Source: a virus. Taken from it: DNA of 34,810 bases. The stretch is taken from positions 1 to 34,810 of the IMG/VR virus record IMGVR_UViG_3300048837_002292, one strand, 5' to 3'. Below the pieces are notes generated by a model, which saw nothing but the letters and a program-made list of their open reading frames with translations, was not told where the DNA came from and made no database searches. A program made the position numbers and the translations under genes. How positions within the stretch are numbered: the stretch's first letter is position 1; each line of letters starts with the position of its first letter. Below are positions 5,107 to 34,810 of this stretch, one piece after another.

Positions 5107-6768
5107 ATGCCGAAAGAATTTAAAAATCAGAAATATAACGCCCTCCTACACCCTGATTTAGTGACGCTGGGAATACACCTCCCAGCTTTATTACACAAAT
5201 ACGATTATGAAAAGCTCATGATACACTTACAAGAGCTGGAAGATAAAGGGCAAAAGAAACAATACCTCGCACTTGTAAAACAGATAGCAGAATCAGACTT
5301 CTGGTTTTTCATGTATTACGTTTTAGACTTCCCGATTGCTCACCCGTATTTAGTAGCACTTGCGTACAGACTACAGGATCACAAAGACGATCCGTATCTT
5401 TACCTTGCAGCAGGCCGGGGATCATGGAAGAGTACCTTCTTAACTATAGGCTTAAGCTTATGGGAAACTGCTTTAGATGCCAATATGACAACGCTGATTG
5501 TTTCGTATCAGAGACAAATGGCTACAAAACAATTACTCGGTGTCAAGCGTAATGTAGAAAACAATCCGCTTCTTTCACAGCTTTGGCCTGATATATTTTA
5601 TTCCTCCGGTGATTTCCGATCTAAGCTTACTGATAAATGGAATGAATACGCTGGGCTTTTCGTAAAACGATCTTTGAACTCTTCCGATCCTACCTTTGCA
5701 GCCTTTGGCTTCATCGAGGGAATGCCTACAGGAATGCACTTCAAAAGAGTTATTATCGACGATCCCGTTACTTTGGATAATTCTGCTACAATAGAATCTA
5801 TTGAAAAGGTCAGAAATGGGTTCAGGATGCTTACTGGACTCAAAGATAAAGTAAATGGTTGCACTACAAGGGTGGCAACAACTCGATATGATGTAAATGA
5901 CATATCAAAAGATATTATACAAAATAAGAAATATGTACATATAATCATTCCGGCAGAAGTTGACTCAAATGGGGAAGCTAAATTCGATTCTATCCCCTGT
6001 TATATGACAAGAGAACAGCTCGACCAGGAAAGAGAGGATTACGGCGACGCATATTATGCCGCACAGATGCTTCAGAATCCGACATTAGGTGGCGGCTCTG
6101 CACTTGATCCGGCCTGGTTAGACAACTGTTACTACGAAACATTACCTACTACGCTGAACTACTACATACTTATTGACCCTGCTGGTAGTAAATCAAAGAG
6201 ATCAGACTTTTCAGTCTTTGTTGTTATTGGTGTAAGCCCGGATAAACAGTTCTTCTTAATTGATATGGTGCGTGATAAGTTGGACGTTTACGAAAGATGG
6301 GCTACCCTTAAAGACTTACACAAACACTATAGACCAGACGGTGTATTCTACGAACAACAGGGTATGCAGTCAGACCTTGAAGTTTTTGAAAGAGAACAGA
6401 GAACAGATAAGTATTACATCCACATAGAAAGATACAGCTCTAACGTATCCGGGAACAAACACCGCAGAATTATGGCACTTGGCGCAATGTTCCGTAAAGG
6501 AGAATACTTCCTACCAAATGCAATATTTTACAATGGCCGGGACTTGATAGAAGAATTTGTTCAGGAAGAGTATTCCAAATATCCACACAACAGAGCGCAT
6601 GACGATATGCTCGACGCAATGAGCATGATAACACAAGTCTCAGTTATAGTCCCCGAACCATCAGCAGAAGATAAACAAAAGAACATATATCCAGTAAATC
6701 CACGCAATCCCCTTTCAGACAACTCCGGTAATGGCACATGGATGTCCGACTTTTGCCAGACCTGGTAA
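5107..6768 (+). CDS. terL: Terminase large subunit
   Basis: 553-residue packaging motor that pumps DNA into the procapsid with ATP and cuts it. ATPase: Walker-A-like GRGSWKST near 102-109 (Trp where Gly is common), Walker B VIIDDP near 215-220, and a TTR coupling motif (TRVATTRYD) near 255. RNase H-like nuclease: LIDPAG near 354-359, VFYEQQGMQSD near 418, and the final acidic HDDMLDAM near 498-505. Length is normal for the family. It opens the structural operon behind a hairpin and a long dyad. The start has no obvious ribosome site, but no better methionine precedes the conserved part. Confidence 0.93.
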   Translation: MPKEFKNQKYNALLHPDLVTLGIHLPALLHKYDYEKLMIHLQELEDKGQKKQYLALVKQIAESDFWFFMYYVLDFPIAHPYLVALAYRLQDHKDDPYLYLAAGRGSWKSTFLTIGLSLWETALDANMTTLIVSYQRQMATKQLLGVKRNVENNPLLSQLWPDIFYSSGDFRSKLTDKWNEYAGLFVKRSLNSSDPTFAAFGFIEGMPTGMHFKRVIIDDPVTLDNSATIESIEKVRNGFRMLTGLKDKVNGCTTRVATTRYDVNDISKDIIQNKKYVHIIIPAEVDSNGEAKFDSIPCYMTREQLDQEREDYGDAYYAAQMLQNPTLGGGSALDPAWLDNCYYETLPTTLNYYILIDPAGSKSKRSDFSVFVVIGVSPDKQFFLIDMVRDKLDVYERWATLKDLHKHYRPDGVFYEQQGMQSDLEVFEREQRTDKYYIHIERYSSNVSGNKHRRIMALGAMFRKGEYFLPNAIFYNGRDLIEEFVQEEYSKYPHNRAHDDMLDAMSMITQVSVIVPEPSAEDKQKNIYPVNPRNPLSDNSGNGTWMSDFCQTW

Positions 6769-6791: not shown

Positions 6792-8498
6792 ATGAGCGAA
6801 GAAAAAGACATATTATCAGAGATAAAAGAAGCCTCCGCAGAATGTGAAGAAATATATTCTAATTTGTACGATGAGATGGAAGAAGACCTATTATTTTATA
6901 GTGGCAGTCAGTGGGGCACGGCAGATGCTAATAATGTCAGTTCTACGCATAACAAGAAGATAACTATCAACTGGCTTAAAAAGCAAGTCGACACATTGGT
7001 CGGGAGACGTGAGGCCACTTTGACAGACTTGAAGTGCTATCCTATTGAGAATGACGATGCCGTAATGTCTTCTATCTCAACCAGGCTCTTGAAGTGGACT
7101 TTAGACACAGCAGACTCACAGATATTTATCTCGCAAGCATATAAGAACCAGATAGCGGCTTCGCTGGGCTGGGTATTTATACACATTGATTCAGAAAAGA
7201 ATATAAGATTATCCTCAGAATCCCCATTGAATGTATATGTTGATCCGCTTTGCCATGATTTAATGGGGCTAAGCGATGCCGATTATATTCTCCGCTTTAA
7301 ATCCACAGATGAAAGATCATTAACTAAAGCTTTCCCCGACAAAGCAGATGAGATAAAGGGCTTAAAAGATGTAAATGAAACTCTTTATCGCTATGAAACT
7401 AACACTAAGAAGAAAAGAAAGAGTAAAGTTGTAATAAAGGAATATTGGTATCGTTCAGAAGAAACACGAACATGGATCGTCAATACTGAAGACCCGACTG
7501 ATGCAGAAGTCTGGCCGGGAGAAGATGACGAAACTCTCACATATTTCTTAACTTTAAATCCCCACCTTACAAAAGAATCTCGTACTTCAGATGTTATTAA
7601 AGTTGCAACAATCGCTGGTGACATCCTTCTTCAAGATGCGGTATATTGCACAGGCTCAGACTATCCGTTTATCCCTTTCGTCGGCTATTACACAGATAGC
7701 TTGGATGAATGGGAAAACAAGCTTATAAGCTTTATTCGTCCATTAAAGGACATACAAAGAGAAGGTAACGCAAGACACTCCGCTTTATGGGCTGTTACTT
7801 CCAAACTACCTTTTGCAACCTGGATACATGAAGAAGGTTCCATTTCAGATAACGTAAAGCTGAAACAGCTTGGCGGTAAAGTAGGATCACTCCCTTTCCG
7901 TAAAGGTGCTACACCTCCGCAATTAGTACCACAATCCCAATTACCACAAGCTGAAATACAATTACTCCAGCTCTTAGGATCAGATGCTAATCTGGTCGGA
8001 TTAAGCCCGGAGATAACAGGCAATCCCAGCAACCTTGAATCTGCCAAAGCTATCTCACTCGTTCAGGCCGTCGGCTTGACTTCATGTGCTGAGATTAATA
8101 GCCACTTGAATTATGCCCTTAAGAAGCTGGGACTATTCGTACTAAAACTAATCACAGAAAACTATTCCCTTCAGAAGATGCAGAGAATTATAGGCAACCA
8201 GCTTATTATTGATGAAGCAACATATTCAGCTCTTAGAGATGATATAAGATTCAATGTCGTAATAGATGAAACTGCTCATTCTGTCACACACCAAATGGCG
8301 GCTTACGATACCCTCGTACAACAAGCACAATACGGCGATTTGATGATTCAAGGTATGCTCACAGAGAATAACCCGTACCTTACCCCGGAACAGAAACAGT
8401 CTATGTCTGCAAAACTACAACAAGCACAAGAACAACAAATGCAGATGCAACAACAGCAGATTATGGCGCAGATGCCACAGAATAACGGACAACAATAA
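6792..8498 (+). CDS. Portal protein, P22-like
   Basis: 568-residue portal that forms the dodecameric ring through which DNA enters and leaves the head. It matches the P22-type portal pattern: an acidic N-terminus, LLFYSGSQWG near 33-42, INWLKKQVDTLVGRREA near 56-72, then the long wing and stem (GLSPEITGNPSNLESAKAIS region near 400-420). The C-terminal tail is a Gln/Met-rich helix (QQAQEQQMQMQQQQ), as expected for a barrel. It lies 23 bases after the terminase and its stop overlaps the next start (TAATG). The SD is weak. Confidence 0.88.
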   Translation: MSEEKDILSEIKEASAECEEIYSNLYDEMEEDLLFYSGSQWGTADANNVSSTHNKKITINWLKKQVDTLVGRREATLTDLKCYPIENDDAVMSSISTRLLKWTLDTADSQIFISQAYKNQIAASLGWVFIHIDSEKNIRLSSESPLNVYVDPLCHDLMGLSDADYILRFKSTDERSLTKAFPDKADEIKGLKDVNETLYRYETNTKKKRKSKVVIKEYWYRSEETRTWIVNTEDPTDAEVWPGEDDETLTYFLTLNPHLTKESRTSDVIKVATIAGDILLQDAVYCTGSDYPFIPFVGYYTDSLDEWENKLISFIRPLKDIQREGNARHSALWAVTSKLPFATWIHEEGSISDNVKLKQLGGKVGSLPFRKGATPPQLVPQSQLPQAEIQLLQLLGSDANLVGLSPEITGNPSNLESAKAISLVQAVGLTSCAEINSHLNYALKKLGLFVLKLITENYSLQKMQRIIGNQLIIDEATYSALRDDIRFNVVIDETAHSVTHQMAAYDTLVQQAQYGDLMIQGMLTENNPYLTPEQKQSMSAKLQQAQEQQMQMQQQQIMAQMPQNNGQQ

Positions 8499-9757: not shown

Positions 9758-10750
9758 ATGGCAACTTTCGTAAAAGCAAACGCAGGGAATACAAATACCC
9801 TGTTTCACAAAACCCTACTTAGGGCTTTCTCACTCAACCCCGTTTACAGACAATTTGCGTTAAGCCCAACTGTAAAAGGCGTGGATTCAATCACTTTTTA
9901 CAGAGTCAATGACCTTGACTCTACAGTACATCCAACTCTGGTTGATGGTGTTAATCCTTCAAGCCTTGATGCAGATGTAGATACAGTCAAGATAACTCTC
10001 GCTCAATATGGAGCTTACCTTGAGTACGCCGCTTCAGTAGCTGACATTCAGCCAGTTGATTTGATCGGTTCTTTCACAAAGAAAATAGGTAAACTCGGAG
10101 CTGATGTATTAGAGCAGATCATACAGGACGAACTTTTAACGGCCGCAAATATTAATTTTGCTTCTTCCGCAGCTAATAGGGGCGCAGTTGGTGCAGCTCT
10201 TACAGCAGATGATATCTATGCAGTTTACACAGACCTTGAAGTAGGTGGTGCTGAACTTATAACAGATATCGTACCAGCTTCCGACAAGACAGCAACTATC
10301 CCGGTCGATGCGTGTTACATCCTCGTTGTAACTCCATACCAGGCACACACAGTTAAAAAGCTTACTGGTTTTGAGCCTCGCTACAAATATGCAAATCCTA
10401 ACGCAGCCTTTGTTGGTGAGATAGGAAGCATCGGCGGAATGAGAATCATATCCAATCATATACTTAATGGTGGTATAGTACCTGGTTCTGCAACTGTTGG
10501 TTCTGCTACAATAACTGGCTTAAGATCAACTGCAAGTCATTGCGACGTTCACAGAGCAATTGCGTTCGGTAAAGAGGCCTTCGGTGCTGGTATCGGAGCA
10601 AACGGTATAAAATCAATCGTTAAGTCCCCAGCTGAGATCGGTGGCGCACTTGAGATGACTGGCACAACTGGCTACAAGGCCGATTTTGCTTGTGAGATAC
10701 TGAATCAGGATTACGTAGCAATCATCGAATCAGCAGCAGTACTCGCTTAA
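9758..10750 (+). CDS. Major capsid protein, N4-gp56 type
   Basis: 330-residue HK97-fold shell protein of the N4-gp56 family. Visible family features: N-terminal helix with HKTLLRAFSLNPVYRQF, the extended arm DSITFYRVNDL, the spine helix DLIGSFTKKIGKLGADVLEQ near 100-125, and the late segment VVTPYQAHTVKKL plus GEIGSIGGMRIISN near 215-235. It would form the icosahedral head. The site ACAGGACAATAAT lies just upstream. It is followed by a GC hairpin without T-run, which may protect an abundant mRNA end. Confidence 0.92.
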   Translation: MATFVKANAGNTNTLFHKTLLRAFSLNPVYRQFALSPTVKGVDSITFYRVNDLDSTVHPTLVDGVNPSSLDADVDTVKITLAQYGAYLEYAASVADIQPVDLIGSFTKKIGKLGADVLEQIIQDELLTAANINFASSAANRGAVGAALTADDIYAVYTDLEVGGAELITDIVPASDKTATIPVDACYILVVTPYQAHTVKKLTGFEPRYKYANPNAAFVGEIGSIGGMRIISNHILNGGIVPGSATVGSATITGLRSTASHCDVHRAIAFGKEAFGAGIGANGIKSIVKSPAEIGGALEMTGTTGYKADFACEILNQDYVAIIESAAVLA

Positions 10751-25891: not shown

Positions 25892-25923
25892 CCTACTAAT
25901 AAAACCTCCCGTTCCACTTAAGG

Positions 25924-25957
25924 AAACCATCCAAAGCCATCCCTACCCGGATGGTTT
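25924..25957 (+). terminator. Rho-independent terminator
   Basis: AAACCATCC (25924-25932) pairs with GGATGGTTT (25949-25957), a 9-bp stem with a 16-base loop, followed by TCTGCG after a run of four T. It lies 33 bases after the stop at 25891 and closes the rightward transcript. Confidence 0.75.
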
Positions 25958-26024
25958 TCTGCGTTCTAAGCCCTATATAATATTGGAGAAACGGCTATAT
26001 GGAGGACGTTTTACGCCCGTAACG

Positions 26025-26040
26025 GTCTGTTAAAACAGAC
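26025..26040. repeat. GTCTGTT-AA-AACAGAC palindrome
   Basis: Seven-base perfect arms around two A. In RNA it forms a short tight hairpin; in DNA it could be a dimer binding site. It sits just downstream of a TATAAT and GGCTATA element. Confidence 0.6.
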
Positions 26041-26088
26041 TTAATCACTACAAAACGACAGGATTAACTTCGAGGAAATAGCTATCCT

Positions 26089-26128
26089 TATAGCCAATAC
26101 CCGACAATATTGGCGTAGAAGGGCTATA
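26089..26128 (+). ncRNA. Nested alternative hairpins, possible structured RNA
   Basis: GCTAT-CCTT-ATAGC (26081-26094), GCCAATA-8-TATTGGC (26093-26114) and TATAGCC/GGCTATA (26089-26095/26122-26128) overlap and compete, so at most some can form at once. This switch-like overlap, downstream of a TATAAT at 25976, suggests a structured or regulatory RNA. No known RNA family is recognised, so the call is tentative. Confidence 0.25.
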
Positions 26129-26468
26129 AAGTGGCTACAAAAGGGACATATCGGGTGCCTAACGGTGATATAGGTACCAGAAACGCCATAATTGGTACAG
26201 ATAATAGCTGCTAACTACTACAAGATAGGCCCCGAAATATGCCATTTTCTATTGTGATATATGTGAGTGCTTAATGGTATTTCCAGCTATTAGAGCAGGC
26301 ATCCACCCCCCTGGTACCCACCCCCTCTATGTGTCGTTATTGTCCATCGGAAGCACTCATGTGTTATCTATGCTATTCACCTATCCACGGGGGAATGTAT
26401 GCTCTGGATATCGACGGGAGAAATTCCGGGGGAATGGGGGAAGGATGTGCTTAACCGAATCAAGCTTT

Positions 26469-26568
26469 AGTATTTGCTAAAATACTGTATTAATTATATA
26501 TAGCTGTTCGGGATTGTTTCCAATGTAGGCACTATTAGCAAGAGTGTTTCAGTATTTGCTTAAATACT
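26469..26568. repeat. Twin AGTATTT palindromes
   Basis: Copy one AGTATTT-GCTA-AAATACT at 26469-26486 and copy two AGTATTT-GCTT-AAATACT at 26551-26568, 82 bases apart, nearly identical including the loop. Paired identical dyads of this size look like operators or replication-protein sites. Confidence 0.6.
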
Positions 26569-26656
26569 CAATTAGTCCGGTATGTAGCCACTTGTTACCA
26601 CTTGCGGATTGATTCCAGCTTGTAGGGGATTATTACCAGTTGCATATTAACCGGGA

Positions 26657-26674
26657 AACGAGTTTACACTCGTT
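26657..26674. repeat. AACGAGT-TTAC-ACTCGTT palindrome
   Basis: Seven perfect pairs with a four-base loop, about 100 bases beyond the end of the minus-strand repressor gene. May be a terminator stem for that gene (no T-run) or a protein-binding dyad. Confidence 0.5.
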
Positions 26675-26771
26675 CGGGTTAGTATCTGGTAACCATAAAA
26701 GAATAATAGTGTATTACCCTATGTAATAAGTATAAACTCCCGGCCTGCGTTTTTCACTTGTCCGGGGATTG

Positions 26772-26951
26772 TTACTTGTTCGCTTTATGCTGTTTAATAT
26801 AGTCCGTTAAGGCTTTACGCATAATATCTGAACGGTCAATATCAAAGCCGGTTTTCTCTGTTTCTTCAATACATATTTGATCTATCATATTAAGTATATC
26901 AGTATCAATTCTGACCGTTAATGATGATTTACTTTTTGCTGTTTCTGCCAT
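26772..26951 (-). CDS. Ribbon-helix-helix (CopG/Arc-type) repressor
   Basis: 59-residue protein on the minus strand, shorter than common gene-calling limits. After a Lys/Ser-rich start (MAETAKSKSS) comes the beta strand SLTVRIDTDI (alternating residues that read DNA), helix A (LNMIDQICIEETEKTG) and helix B (DRSDIMRKALTDYIKQHK) with the SDIMRKAL pattern of RHH dimers. Such proteins bind as dimers to short palindromic repeats. The ATG at 26951 follows GGGAGAATTTATTAA. It is the only gene between the noncoding region and a divergent rightward operon, and the spacer is full of ATTACAA elements, so it likely represses that operon and itself. Confidence 0.75.
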   Translation of the reverse strand: MAETAKSKSSLTVRIDTDILNMIDQICIEETEKTGFDIDRSDIMRKALTDYIKQHKANK

Positions 26952-27138: not shown

Positions 27139-27291
27139 ATGCCACAAGTAACAAAGATTAAGCGAATAGATGACGGCTTTATTATCTACACAAGCAAGAT
27201 TCTATTAGCACAAGAGCAAGAAGTTATCAAAGCAGAGTTAAAGCGCATAAGTGCTGAAAGACTCGGACACTTATTTTTCAGAGTAGCATAA
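27139..27291 (+). CDS. Small basic helical protein, first gene of accessory operon
   Basis: 50 residues from ATG 27139 after a very strong site AAAGGGGGGTAAAC to TAA 27289-27291. Sequence MPQVTKIKRIDDGFIIYTSK followed by a charged helix (LLAQEQEVIKAELKRISAER). No motif recognised. Its position directly behind the RHH operator promoter and in front of the large ArdC-like gene marks it as the leader gene of the accessory operon. The near-identical leader AAAGGGGG occurs before the minus-strand gene at 32852. Confidence 0.6.
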   Translation: MPQVTKIKRIDDGFIIYTSKILLAQEQEVIKAELKRISAERLGHLFFRVA

Positions 27292-27326: not shown

Positions 27327-29372
27327 ATGAACGTTAAACAAATAGTAATTGAAAGAATTCAAGAAGAACTTAAGGCCGGGCGCGTACCTTGGCAAAGTCC
27401 CTATCTAAAAGGGAAAGATGGACAGACTAAATGTAATTTTATATCCGGGCATAGTTACCGGGGAACTAATGAATTGTTACTCGCTTATAATCCAGATACT
27501 TACTATATGACTTTCCGACAAGCTCAAGAGATAGGCGCACAGATTAAAAAGGGCGCAAAAAGTGAAATAGTTACTTTCTGGAAAATGCTTGAAACTACCG
27601 ACACAAGCACAGGCGAGAAGAAGACAGTTCCGATCCTTAACTATTACCGTGTTTTCGGAGTCTCACAGGTAGACTTTACCGGAGTAGAAGAAAAGTATCA
27701 GCATTATATTAATAAACGTCAAGCAGATATAAAACATAATCCTTTCATAAATGACATTGAACAGTTTCTATATTATACACAAGCTACAATTAAGCATGAA
27801 AGAAAGGGAATAGCTTTTTATAGTCCTACACTTGATTATATTAATATGCCCCCGATCAATACTTTTGAAAATAGCACTTCATATTATGAAACACTATTTC
27901 ACGAGTTAACACACTGGACAGGGTACGAGTCAAGAAACAATAGATTACCGTCTGTTATACATAAAAGAAGTGAAGAATACAGCAAGGAAGAATTAATTGC
28001 TGAGCTGGGAAGTTGTTTCCTAAGTGCTGAATTTAACTTGAAAGTGAATTATAAAAACTCAGCTTCTTATATAGCTTCATGGAGTCAGTTTCTAAAGGAT
28101 AATCAAAACGCTTTATTTTCAGCAAGTACGGAAGCGAGTAAAGCAGTTGAATATCTTAAAGAAATTACTGTTAAGAATATGGAAGCTATCCCGGCACCAG
28201 CGGAAACAGAAGTCACGGAAGCCCCGGAAGTAATAGCGGAACCAGTTACAGAAGTTAAACCAGTTAAAAAACCAAAGTCACCAAAGAAGACAAAGCCGGT
28301 TAAAGAAGAAGTTAAGCCGGAACCGGAACCAGTACAAGTCCCGGAAATAAAAGAGCCTGTATCCGGTCAGATACAAGCTGTCAATAAGTCTTTAAATGTC
28401 GCTCTCTTGAAAAGATACATAACAGACTCAACTATACTTTTAGAAGTCTCACAGAATGAAGTCAAGTATTTTACACATGATAATACAGTTATAATATTTG
28501 CTGTTAAAGTGGATACTGACAAGCCTTATGTAATAGCTGTTAATCCTATAAGAACAAACTTAAAGAAGTGTAAAGGTCAGATACTTTTCAGGGATAATAA
28601 GATTATTACTGATTCTATTATAGTAAACTTTGAACCTATCCCGGAAGATGAAAAACTATTAATCCCTGTTAAAGTACCTGATACAGATTATGTGTCAGGG
28701 CTTTATTCAGCAGTTAAGAAAGTAATTCATGCTTCAGCTACTGACAATATAAAGCCGGTCTTTCATTCAGTATGCTTTACAGATAATAGTATTGTTGCTA
28801 CTGATTCAAGGCGTTTAGCGTTAACAGAATTTCATCTTTTTAATAGTGTTGCTGATATAATAGTTGATAGGTCAGTGATTGACATTGCAATAAAAGATAA
28901 ACTGGATTATATCAATGTTGTTACACTAAAAGAAAAAGTAGACACTGCTTTAATAATAGATATTCATTATGTTGTAATAACTAACCGTCAAGACATAACA
29001 ATAATATCTAAAGAAGTCCCCGGACAATTCCCTAACTTCATACAGATTATACCAAGTAAGAAAAGTATAGTTCAGACAGTAAAATTCAATCCGGCAAGCC
29101 TTATGCCATTCTTACAATTCAAGAAAGGTACAGTTATATTCAATGGTGATACTTTAACACATAAGGACACTGGACACTCAATTAAAACTCCATTTCATTC
29201 TACTTTAGAAATAGGTGTTAATGCTGAATTCCTTAAGGACTGTTTAAAGGACAAGAAAGAAGTATCAATGTCTTTCACTGGCGTAATGTCGCCCTTTATG
29301 ATTAAGGACGGGGATTTAACAAACATTATAATGCCTATTCAGTTGAAGAAGAAAGAAGAGCAAGCCGCATAA
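27327..29372 (+). CDS. ArdC-type anti-restriction protein fused to a sliding-clamp-like domain
   Basis: 681 residues in three parts. About 1-120 is an ArdC N-terminal single-strand DNA-binding domain (VPWQSPYLKG, SYRGTNELLL, MTFRQAQEIGAQIKKGAKSE). About 180-285 is a zinc metallopeptidase-like domain with HELTH at 192-196 and the later EELIAELGSCFL; proteins of this class protect incoming DNA from restriction. A Pro/Lys/Glu linker (290-345) follows. About 350-675 resembles the bacterial DNA polymerase III beta clamp: SVCFTDNSIVATDSRRLALT near 480-499, VPGQFPNFIQIIPS near 563-576, and a C-terminal SPFMIKDGDL...NIIMPIQL near 654-672. All three match the order and spacing of clamp domains 2 and 3. 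I know no phage gene joining these. Site AGAAGGAGTTACACCC precedes the ATG. Confidence 0.8.
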   Translation: MNVKQIVIERIQEELKAGRVPWQSPYLKGKDGQTKCNFISGHSYRGTNELLLAYNPDTYYMTFRQAQEIGAQIKKGAKSEIVTFWKMLETTDTSTGEKKTVPILNYYRVFGVSQVDFTGVEEKYQHYINKRQADIKHNPFINDIEQFLYYTQATIKHERKGIAFYSPTLDYINMPPINTFENSTSYYETLFHELTHWTGYESRNNRLPSVIHKRSEEYSKEELIAELGSCFLSAEFNLKVNYKNSASYIASWSQFLKDNQNALFSASTEASKAVEYLKEITVKNMEAIPAPAETEVTEAPEVIAEPVTEVKPVKKPKSPKKTKPVKEEVKPEPEPVQVPEIKEPVSGQIQAVNKSLNVALLKRYITDSTILLEVSQNEVKYFTHDNTVIIFAVKVDTDKPYVIAVNPIRTNLKKCKGQILFRDNKIITDSIIVNFEPIPEDEKLLIPVKVPDTDYVSGLYSAVKKVIHASATDNIKPVFHSVCFTDNSIVATDSRRLALTEFHLFNSVADIIVDRSVIDIAIKDKLDYINVVTLKEKVDTALIIDIHYVVITNRQDITIISKEVPGQFPNFIQIIPSKKSIVQTVKFNPASLMPFLQFKKGTVIFNGDTLTHKDTGHSIKTPFHSTLEIGVNAEFLKDCLKDKKEVSMSFTGVMSPFMIKDGDLTNIIMPIQLKKKEEQAA

Positions 29373-30588: not shown

Positions 30589-31191
30589 ATGACCAAAAAG
30601 AAAGTTATTGAAGAAATAAATTTACCGTTTTCAGTTACCAGAATGGGAGTAGATTTACCGCCGGAATATTATACATGGGATGCAAAGAAGAGAATATTTA
30701 AAACAGAAATGCACGAACTAACTATAGATTGCTGGGAAGATGGTATTACTTTTCATACTAAAGGCGGTTCGACTTTTCTATTAAAGAATAATTGCCATGT
30801 TTCCACCGATTATTATTGTAATATTATAGCCGGGGATAATTGCACTTTATCTACTATAGGAATGTGTAACTTTACAACTGGTAATAATTGTAAATTTCAC
30901 ACTCAGGATGCTTGTAACTTTATAACTGGTGATGATTGTACTTTTAAAACTGGTAGTGCGTGTTTCTTTATTACTGGTGATAATTGTACTTTCGATGTCG
31001 GGGAAGCTTGTATTTTCCAGACAAAAACAAATTGCACTTTCAAAAATGAATCACATTGTATTTATATAACAGAAGAAAACTGTAAATTCAAATCAAAAAA
31101 GCCGGGACTATTGATTGACTGGAATAAATTAACTTCTATTCAAATACCAGAAGCCCCGGCAGCTAAAAAGGCAGTAGTTAAGAAGAAGTAA
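30589..31191 (+). CDS. Cysteine-ladder octapeptide-repeat protein
   Basis: 200 residues. After about 65 ordinary residues comes a perfect repeat: 13 cysteines spaced exactly eight apart (C69 to C165), mostly of the form N-C-x-F-x-T-G-x, for example NNCKFHTQDACNF and DDCTFKTGSACFF. This implies a right-handed beta-helix with stacked cysteines, akin to pentapeptide-repeat or hexapeptide folds but with eight-residue rungs. It may bind metal, mimic DNA or resist host proteins. The tail is basic (PAAKKAVVKKK). DNA repeats are imperfect 24/48-base units. Site AACAGGAGTCAAGGA precedes the ATG. Function unknown. Confidence 0.65.
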   Translation: MTKKKVIEEINLPFSVTRMGVDLPPEYYTWDAKKRIFKTEMHELTIDCWEDGITFHTKGGSTFLLKNNCHVSTDYYCNIIAGDNCTLSTIGMCNFTTGNNCKFHTQDACNFITGDDCTFKTGSACFFITGDNCTFDVGEACIFQTKTNCTFKNESHCIYITEENCKFKSKKPGLLIDWNKLTSIQIPEAPAAKKAVVKKK

Positions 31192-33217: not shown

Positions 33218-34810
33218 ATGAATGTTGCAATATATTGCCGGGTAAGTACGGATCAACAGCTTAGAGATGAAGGCAGTCTTAAGAATCAGGAACAGGCCTG
33301 CCGGGCTTATGTTGATTATAAATACAAGGATAAGTCCCCGAAAGTTGAACTATATGTAGATGAAGCCATATCCGCTAAGAATATTACCGATCGCCCATCT
33401 ATGCAAAGGCTTATTAAAGATATACATAACGATAAAGTAAATGCAGTTATAATAAATAAGTTAGACCGGGCCTTCCGTAATGTAATAGATACACTTGATT
33501 TCGTAAAACTAACTTCTCATAAGAATATAATATTCCACTCTTTGAAAGAAGACATCGATACAAAATCTGCTTCCGGTAAGATGTTCCTTACTGTACTTGC
33601 TGCACTTGCTGAAATGGAAAGGGAACAAACCAGTGAGAGATTAAAGTTCTCAGTCCGGGAGAAGGCAAAGCGTGGTATTAGGAGTTCGGGGAATGTTCCT
33701 TATGGATACAGACTAAGACCCGGCGGTGTAATAGAAGATGTTCCGGCTGAACAGGAAGTAGTCCGAAAGATGTTTGAATTATACTTCGAGACTGGCAGTT
33801 TTTCTGTTGTCCGGGATCGTATTAATGCATTAGGGCACACACATACCGACCGCAGACAAGGCGGAGAAAGGGATGAAGGTAAATTTATAGCTCAAACTAT
33901 TAATAACCTGATCCGTAATAAATTTTATATCAATATATTAGAATGTAATAAAGCGAATGTTTATTTAGATCAAAGTACTCTCCCGGAAGATAAAAGATAT
34001 TATACTATGCCGGGATCGTGGAATCCATGTGTTGACGAAGAACTGTTCTACAAATGCCAGGCTATAGCAGATAAGAATAAAGAATCCAGGCATAACAGTA
34101 TTACCGTATCAGAGATAACACCTTTAATATTCAGCGGTTTAATCTTTTGTGATTGTGGTAAACAGATGGTAGGACATACATCCCGGCGGCCTAAGTCTGT
34201 AAAGAAATACGGAACTGGTGAGAAGTGGATGTACACTTATTATCGATGTAAGCCATGTAAACGACTTCTTAAATCAGCTAAACTTGAAGAAGTTATAGAT
34301 AAACTGGCGGACGATCTACTTGATAAGGATAATACTATCTTAAAAGATGCTTATAGGAATTATGAAGAAGAGATGCAAGCATATCATAAATATAACGAAG
34401 ACCAGTTAGTAAAGACGATTAAGAATCTGAATAAAGCGACTAAAGAAAAAGAGAAGATAATAAATGTTCTTACTAAAATAGATGATCCGGGAACTATAGA
34501 ACAGCTTAATACTAAGTTGAAAGAGTTATCAAAATTAATCACTGGATTCAATAACGGGATAGAGTACTTAAACAGTAGTAAAGAAAACAAGTTAGCAATA
34601 GATATATTCTCAGACTTCGTTAAAATGCGAGTAGCAGAAAAAAGCGACTTTAAAAATCTATCTGCTAAAGATAAGAAACAAGTAGTTAATGCCCTATTCT
34701 CCCGGATCACAGTTAAAGAAGACCGGGTAGAAGCGGAACTTAAGACATCAGATGTAATATCATTACAGTTTGGCCAGAAGAAAGCCCTGTCAGGACAGAT
34801 GGGAGGATGA
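33218..34810 (+). CDS. Large serine recombinase (integrase)
   Basis: 530-residue serine integrase that joins phage and host DNA at att sites. Catalytic domain about 1-150 with YCRVSTDQQ and nucleophile Ser10, INKLDRAFRN near 87-96, and the FLTVLAALAEMEREQTSERL helix near 125-145. Recombinase domain follows about 160-290 (VPYGYRLRPGGVIEDVPAEQ). A zinc ribbon (CDCGKQ near 311-316, CKPCKR near 344-349) and a coiled coil about 370-460 mark the C-terminus. Length and all parts look intact. The gene ends exactly at the last base of the window, so the flanking att site, usually next to int, is not visible. A ribosome site AAAGGGG precedes the ATG. Confidence 0.95.
   Translation: MNVAIYCRVSTDQQLRDEGSLKNQEQACRAYVDYKYKDKSPKVELYVDEAISAKNITDRPSMQRLIKDIHNDKVNAVIINKLDRAFRNVIDTLDFVKLTSHKNIIFHSLKEDIDTKSASGKMFLTVLAALAEMEREQTSERLKFSVREKAKRGIRSSGNVPYGYRLRPGGVIEDVPAEQEVVRKMFELYFETGSFSVVRDRINALGHTHTDRRQGGERDEGKFIAQTINNLIRNKFYINILECNKANVYLDQSTLPEDKRYYTMPGSWNPCVDEELFYKCQAIADKNKESRHNSITVSEITPLIFSGLIFCDCGKQMVGHTSRRPKSVKKYGTGEKWMYTYYRCKPCKRLLKSAKLEEVIDKLADDLLDKDNTILKDAYRNYEEEMQAYHKYNEDQLVKTIKNLNKATKEKEKIINVLTKIDDPGTIEQLNTKLKELSKLITGFNNGIEYLNSSKENKLAIDIFSDFVKMRVAEKSDFKNLSAKDKKQVVNALFSRITVKEDRVEAELKTSDVISLQFGQKKALSGQMGG

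Follow-up and report, generated by a model that had tools for sequence, protein, structure and literature searches.

A phage protein predicted to join a full-length ArdC anti-restriction module to a DnaN-derived sliding-clamp module

The ArdC protein of plasmid R388 binds single-stranded DNA (ssDNA), counters HsdRMS and acts in the recipient; its protease domain is closest to those of Spartan and IrrE, and its protease activity is unnecessary for antirestriction in conjugation (PMC7213743). The same N-terminal ArdC-N domain and MPTase occur in the polyvalent proteins, i.e., multi-domain proteins of mobile elements (Iyer et al. 2017, PMC5512222). In eukaryotes, Spartan (SPRTN) has a PIP box through which it binds PCNA, and it is present at replication forks (PMC9240642). 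The bacterial clamp DnaN is described by three Pfam domains (PF00712, PF02767, and PF02768) and its phage counterparts by phrog_947, and many phages and Bacillota plasmids carry their own DnaN gene. In the window analysed here, which is the whole 34,810-base record IMGVR_UViG_3300048837_002292, a single gene combines ArdC with such a clamp. The clamp partner had been called unfamiliar in a preliminary description of this DNA, and the main text of the polyvalent-protein catalogue (PMC5512222) bears this out, as the terms clamp, DnaN, PCNA, polymerase III and processivity never appear in it; both ArdC and the sliding clamp are mentioned, separately, in PMC7824862. The pairing was recognised once from sequence, and as our literature coverage was partial, an earlier description is possible. 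The gene and its parts are as follows.

27327 to 29372, plus strand: ArdC-clamp fusion gene, 681 aa, a single open reading frame with an ATG start
27330 to 27656, plus strand: ArdC N-terminal ssDNA-binding domain, residues 2-110 (PF08401, E 2.4e-22)
27753 to 28130, plus strand: zincin-like metallopeptidase domain, residues 143-268 (PF18818, MPTase-PolyVal, E 3.5e-37)
28182 to 28361, plus strand: Pro/Lys/Glu-rich linker, about residues 286-345 (60 residues), read from the sequence; the folded module after it starts at pLDDT <50
28371 to 28667, plus strand: clamp domain I, about residues 349-447, divergent and shortened, from the model only (pLDDT 50-80) and with no sequence match
28701 to 29048, plus strand: clamp domain II, about residues 459-574 (clamp-only HMM 5e-12, PF02767 sub-threshold, core pLDDT >90)
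29049 to 29348, plus strand: clamp domain III, about residues 575-674 (PF02768 over cut-off), with a 16-residue deletion at the dimer-interface helix

By its gene content the record reads as a tailed phage, judged temperate from its serine integrase. It also encodes a GIY-YIG endonuclease, and much of the remaining gene content is without recognised function. None of the proteins tested in this possibly incomplete record was recognised as a DNA polymerase, clamp loader, helicase or primase; the ends of the record coincide with gene boundaries (an ATG at base 1, a stop at the last base), so that it looks trimmed. A DNA-similarity search brought up no close relative of the phage. The ATG of the fusion gene has a good ribosome-binding site, AGAAGGAG, 8 nt ahead of it, and the 50-aa ORF that lies upstream across a gap of 35 nt is probably the first gene of a shared transcript. 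A small divergent protein of the ribbon-helix-helix (RHH) type possibly regulates this operon, and repression of the fusion gene in lysogeny would then be possible.

5107 to 6768: terminase large subunit
6792 to 8498: portal
9758 to 10750: major head protein
33218 to 34810: serine integrase, at the right edge of the record
27139 to 27291, plus strand: 50-aa ORF directly upstream of the fusion gene
26772 to 26951, minus strand: 59-aa ribbon-helix-helix protein (PF12651 E 5.6e-4 and PF01402 E 2.3e-3, both just below their cut-offs)

Three independent profiles assign residues 2-285 to a full-length ArdC with ArdcN followed by MPTase-PolyVal: PF08401 (79.9 bits against a cut-off of 22.6), PF18818 (127.7 against 27.5) and phrog_7245 antirestriction, which matches residues 3-285 with E 4.3e-71. 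The HELTH active site is intact at residues 192-196, the glutamate helix with its conserved EELxAE is kept, and H192, E193, H196, E222, and E226 are invariant columns of the ArdC alignment. This half, which is about 33-43% identical to plasmid and phage ArdC proteins, shares with the ArdC of pSa and R388 the full-length module, the domain order, the HExxH motif and the glutamate helix. It differs in that 396 further residues, the linker and the clamp, follow at the C-terminus and in that it resides in a temperate phage and not in a conjugative plasmid. As a multi-domain protein with ArdC-N at its N-terminus and MPTase, in a phage record with terminase, portal, capsid and integrase, it resembles the polyvalent proteins, and it departs from them in its clamp partner.

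Residues from about 346 to 674 are identified, by profile and by model, as a bacterial beta sliding clamp module. PF02768 (DNA_pol3_beta_3) matches residues 625-671 with E 2.8e-6 and a score of 27.6 bits, just above its curated cut-off of 27 bits, and phrog_947 (DNA polymerase processivity factor) matches residues 433-675 with E 2e-18. PF02768 is the only one of the three DnaN domains to pass its cut-off; the central domain PF02767 is sub-threshold (E 0.05-0.23) and PF00712 is not among the Pfam matches of the protein. To avoid circularity, a clamp-only profile was built from 25 other clamps with the fusion protein left out, and it matched residues 459-586 and then 626-674, in this order. Comparison of the clamp half with the 25-clamp profile in hhalign gave 98.4% probability and E 8e-15, and a phmmer search of the PDB matched solved beta clamps with E 3.6e-4. 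A match to phrog_3007, labelled RusA-like Holliday junction resolvase, was dismissed, the family being read as a clamp fragment with a wrong label; many clamps (L209, L217, L200, L194, and others) also match it with their domain II region, and since ordinary clamps do so, the label is probably wrong. The preliminary description had read the first 285 residues as ArdC and the C-terminal half as a clamp, and the profile searches agree with it on both halves. The three clamp hallmarks it named also sit at equivalent positions of E. coli DnaN: VATDSRRLAL (residues 490-499) at T172-D173-..-R176-L177 and FPNFIQIIPS at F241-P242, both in domain II, and NIIMPIQL, with MPIQL kept at residues 669-673 of domain III, at M362-P363-..-L366.

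An AlphaFold monomer model of the clamp half, made with an input alignment containing 27 IMG/VR phage clamps, reached a mean pLDDT of 74 and a pTM of 0.75, with the cores of domains II and III above 90 and domain I at 50-80. All 50 of the 50 Foldseek matches listed were DnaN-type clamps or their complexes (best E 2.7e-18), and VIA-align superposed model residues 1-333 on residues 4-366 of E. coli beta (7azc_C; Z 26.0, rmsd 3.0, 310 residues). As the input alignment consisted of clamps, the model was steered toward a clamp, and domain I in particular rests on it. The clamp half is accordingly modelled with the three-domain fold of DnaN and of the phrog_947 phage clamps, with domain I at low confidence. 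It is only about 15-20% identical to DnaN over the whole module, its domain I is degenerate (109 residues versus 121 in E. coli) and its domain III is shorter (94 versus 114); a further difference is the eight extra residues after MPIQL.

The partner-pocket and dimer-interface positions defined for E. coli DnaN (PMC11139829) were transferred to the aligned clamp half, and the two sites gave opposite pictures. The pocket comprises K476, F479, T492, S494, R495, R496, L497, P569, I574, N632, F635, M654, I667, M669, P670, I671, and Q672, while E. coli R246 is replaced by Gln. At 15 of the 18 positions the residues are BLOSUM-similar to those of E. coli, against a background of 40% (p ~1e-4, 20,000 random draws), and seven of the 18 are identical (p 0.02). 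The T-R-L, the P and the C-terminal MPxxL of DnaN are all present, and the pocket for clamp-binding motifs is, judging from the alignment, kept. Independent phage clamps conserve it about equally, so the pocket of the fusion looks to be under the same constraint.

Of the dimer-interface hydrophobics, Ile78 is replaced by Asn and Phe106 by Val, and Ile272 and Leu273 are deleted. The Ile78 and Phe106 readings rest on the uncertain alignment of domain I, whereas the deletion in domain III is less alignment-dependent because both its flanks are recognised by the clamp-only profile. The stretch matching E. coli residues 258-292 has 19 residues in the fusion versus 30-43 in all 53 other clamps, which makes the fusion the shortest of the 54 at the dimer-forming part of domain III. 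The interface thus appears to be lost, and a closed homodimeric ring, or sliding as a ring, is doubtful. The loss of these four conserved hydrophobics also counts against the earlier proposal that the protein could replace the host clamp. A role of the protein as a ring-shaped processivity clamp for phage replication, with ArdC simply travelling on each subunit, would accord with the modelled three-domain fold and with the frequency of own DnaN genes among phages and Bacillota plasmids. We consider it improbable, given the lost interface residues, the shortened domains I and III and the lack of other recognised replication genes in a record that may be incomplete.

The same deletion, being unique, together with a barely recognisable domain I and a very long branch in the clamp tree, could also mark the clamp half as a decaying remnant of host origin or as a plain DNA-binding tail without clamp function. 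This, too, we regard as improbable, since the frame has stayed open over 341 codons, the pocket residues are kept far above background and the model gives both domain II and domain III a core with pLDDT >90.

Our preferred reading, for which we see roughly even chances, is a phage anti-restriction protein of the polyvalent type, in which a flexible linker connects a complete ArdC module to a DnaN-derived clamp that would deliver it to the replisome or to freshly replicated phage DNA. The clamp could do so as a ring or half-ring that the host clamp loader handles, or else by docking on proteins of the host that have clamp-binding motifs. Recruitment would depend on host proteins, as no phage polymerase, clamp loader or helicase was recognised in the record. 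Once there, ArdC would coat the ssDNA of the fork and shield it from restriction or other nucleases, and its Spartan-like metalloprotease may strip proteins from DNA. A phage with a double-stranded genome exposes ssDNA mainly at forks, and a clamp tether would therefore put ArdC where it can bind. The tether to the fork that the preliminary description had suggested is plausible in the light of the kept pocket and of the binding of ssDNA by ArdC (PMC7213743). The apparent loss of the dimer interface, the dispensability of the R388 ArdC protease for antirestriction in conjugation, and the finding of a single ArdC-clamp protein, which leaves no evolutionary record of selection, speak against this explanation.

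A monomeric clamp half would tether ArdC to clamp-binding proteins. The E. coli clamp with I272A/L273A is a monomer (PMC3022782), and the delta subunit prefers this monomer to the dimer, binding it about 50-fold more tightly (PMC11139829). Taken together with the interface deletion, this suggests that the module may dock on clamp partners and not encircle DNA. We tentatively propose a monomeric docking module whose pocket is used in reverse, to hold a Spartan-like ssDNA-binding protease against proteins with clamp-binding motifs, such as the clamp loader, polymerases, and repair enzymes. If true, it would be a novel type of phage protein, directed against restriction or at the replisome.

With a monomer, the main rival becomes a replisome decoy, a clamp mimic with a working pocket that captures the host delta subunit and polymerases and so slows host replication or diverts it to the phage; the ArdC protease may cut the captured proteins. 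Retention of the pocket with deletion of Ile272 and Leu273 fits a decoy, the tight binding of the E. coli monomer by delta does so as well, and a monomeric clamp with a working cleft could not be cloned, suggesting a dominant-negative effect (PMC3022782). We nevertheless hold a decoy to be unlikely. The phage is temperate and a decoy expressed in lysogeny would harm the host, though the divergent RHH protein could repress it, and with the uncertain alignment of domain I, compensating contacts could still yield a dimer.

Recruitment of ArdC by a clamp would have a functional parallel in Spartan and PCNA, where a DNA-dependent HExxH protease is likewise linked to a sliding clamp at forks. Spartan uses a short peptide for this purpose, while the phage clamp is part of the same chain, and we do not claim common descent. 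For the phage version of ArdC, its natural fusion to a clamp points to replication forks as the site of action.

No second ArdC-clamp protein was found in searches of about 985 genomes, nor in phages or plasmids, where an empty search in one bacterial phylum carries no weight alone. A fused relative was retrieved neither when the entire protein or its clamp half was scanned against IMG/VR and GTDB genomes nor when two-row clamp alignments served as queries. A recognised clamp was in frame with ArdC in none of the closest 80 of 548 IMG/VR ArdC loci and in none of 78 genome ArdC loci; when 50 of these virus records were searched for a clamp, one proved to encode it in a gene of its own, at a distance of about 7 kb from ardC. 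The ~985 genomes, from three bacterial groups, had solely ordinary dnaN genes where checked, and two open frames of 793 and 818 aa at dnaN proved to be ordinary dnaN inside long frames. The best matches to the clamp half, at up to 35% identity, came from one phylum, with 46 of 398 genomes, whereas the other groups gave 1 of 291 and 0 of 296, and this concentration suggests that the clamp half could descend from a host dnaN there. The tree, with weak forks and a branch of 3.1 changes per site for the clamp half, gives it no firm place. An assembly chimera of an ardC and a dnaN gene, which a single copy in a metagenome-derived record might suggest, is hardly credible: the junction is in-frame and lies within a linker of low complexity, as is typical where proteins have fused naturally, no chromosomal dnaN found comes close to the clamp in sequence (at best 35% identity across the part that matched), and the base composition has no sharp break at 2-kb resolution.

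ArdC also takes other partners, as predicted for a Clostridia MAG (AH.12_9, L157 5764-7911), where it is joined to a phage primase-like domain of the replication type (phrog_19458, E 4e-113). In another virus (IMGVR_UViG_3300033463_005705, L014 5727-6293), ArdC has a 170-residue C-terminal extension, the last ~47 residues of which weakly resemble the closing part of clamp domain III (hhalign E 0.004). This protein was rejected as a second ArdC-clamp, having no family match, no relatives and a poor single-sequence model (pLDDT 40).

Clamps, too, have another partner. A 719-aa protein (IMGVR_UViG_3300037047_000308, L212 1897-4056) consists of a DNA methyltransferase-like domain at the N-terminus, a linker rich in Pro and Ala, and a complete clamp, with PF00712 and PF02767 over their cut-offs and phrog_947 at E 8.6e-47; ParB-like and RadC-like genes lie at the same locus. 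The same clamp occurs without the methyltransferase on another contig (L204/L225). Both fusions have an N-terminal DNA-modifying enzyme, a Pro-rich linker and a C-terminal clamp; they differ in the enzyme, in the completeness of the clamp, which is readily recognised in L212, and apparently in the clamp lineage, so L212 looks like an independent enzyme-clamp fusion. We know of no described system with a methyltransferase-clamp fusion, and the part of the literature that we searched yielded no relevant description of clamp-methyltransferase or ArdC-polymerase combinations. From these two sequences, protective enzymes may have been tethered to clamps more than once, which suggests that phages may use sliding clamps as tethers for enzymes that protect DNA, in parallel to Spartan and PCNA. 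If the docking proposal is true, L212 would show that phages have repeatedly turned clamps into delivery modules.

Three further regions of the phage record are worth recording. Upstream of the terminase and beside the GIY-YIG endonuclease, 1226-2884 encodes a 552-aa protein without a PHROG or significant Pfam match. The ~0.9 kb at 25892-26771, where the sole recognised gene is a 68-aa ORF, contain a direct repeat of 27 nt as well as an inverted one of 38 nt, which is imperfect (26119-26156 / 26566-26603). The 200-aa protein encoded at 30589-31191, which has no family match, carries a repeated C-x-F-x-T-G-x-x-C pattern and resembles a small beta-helix repeat protein.
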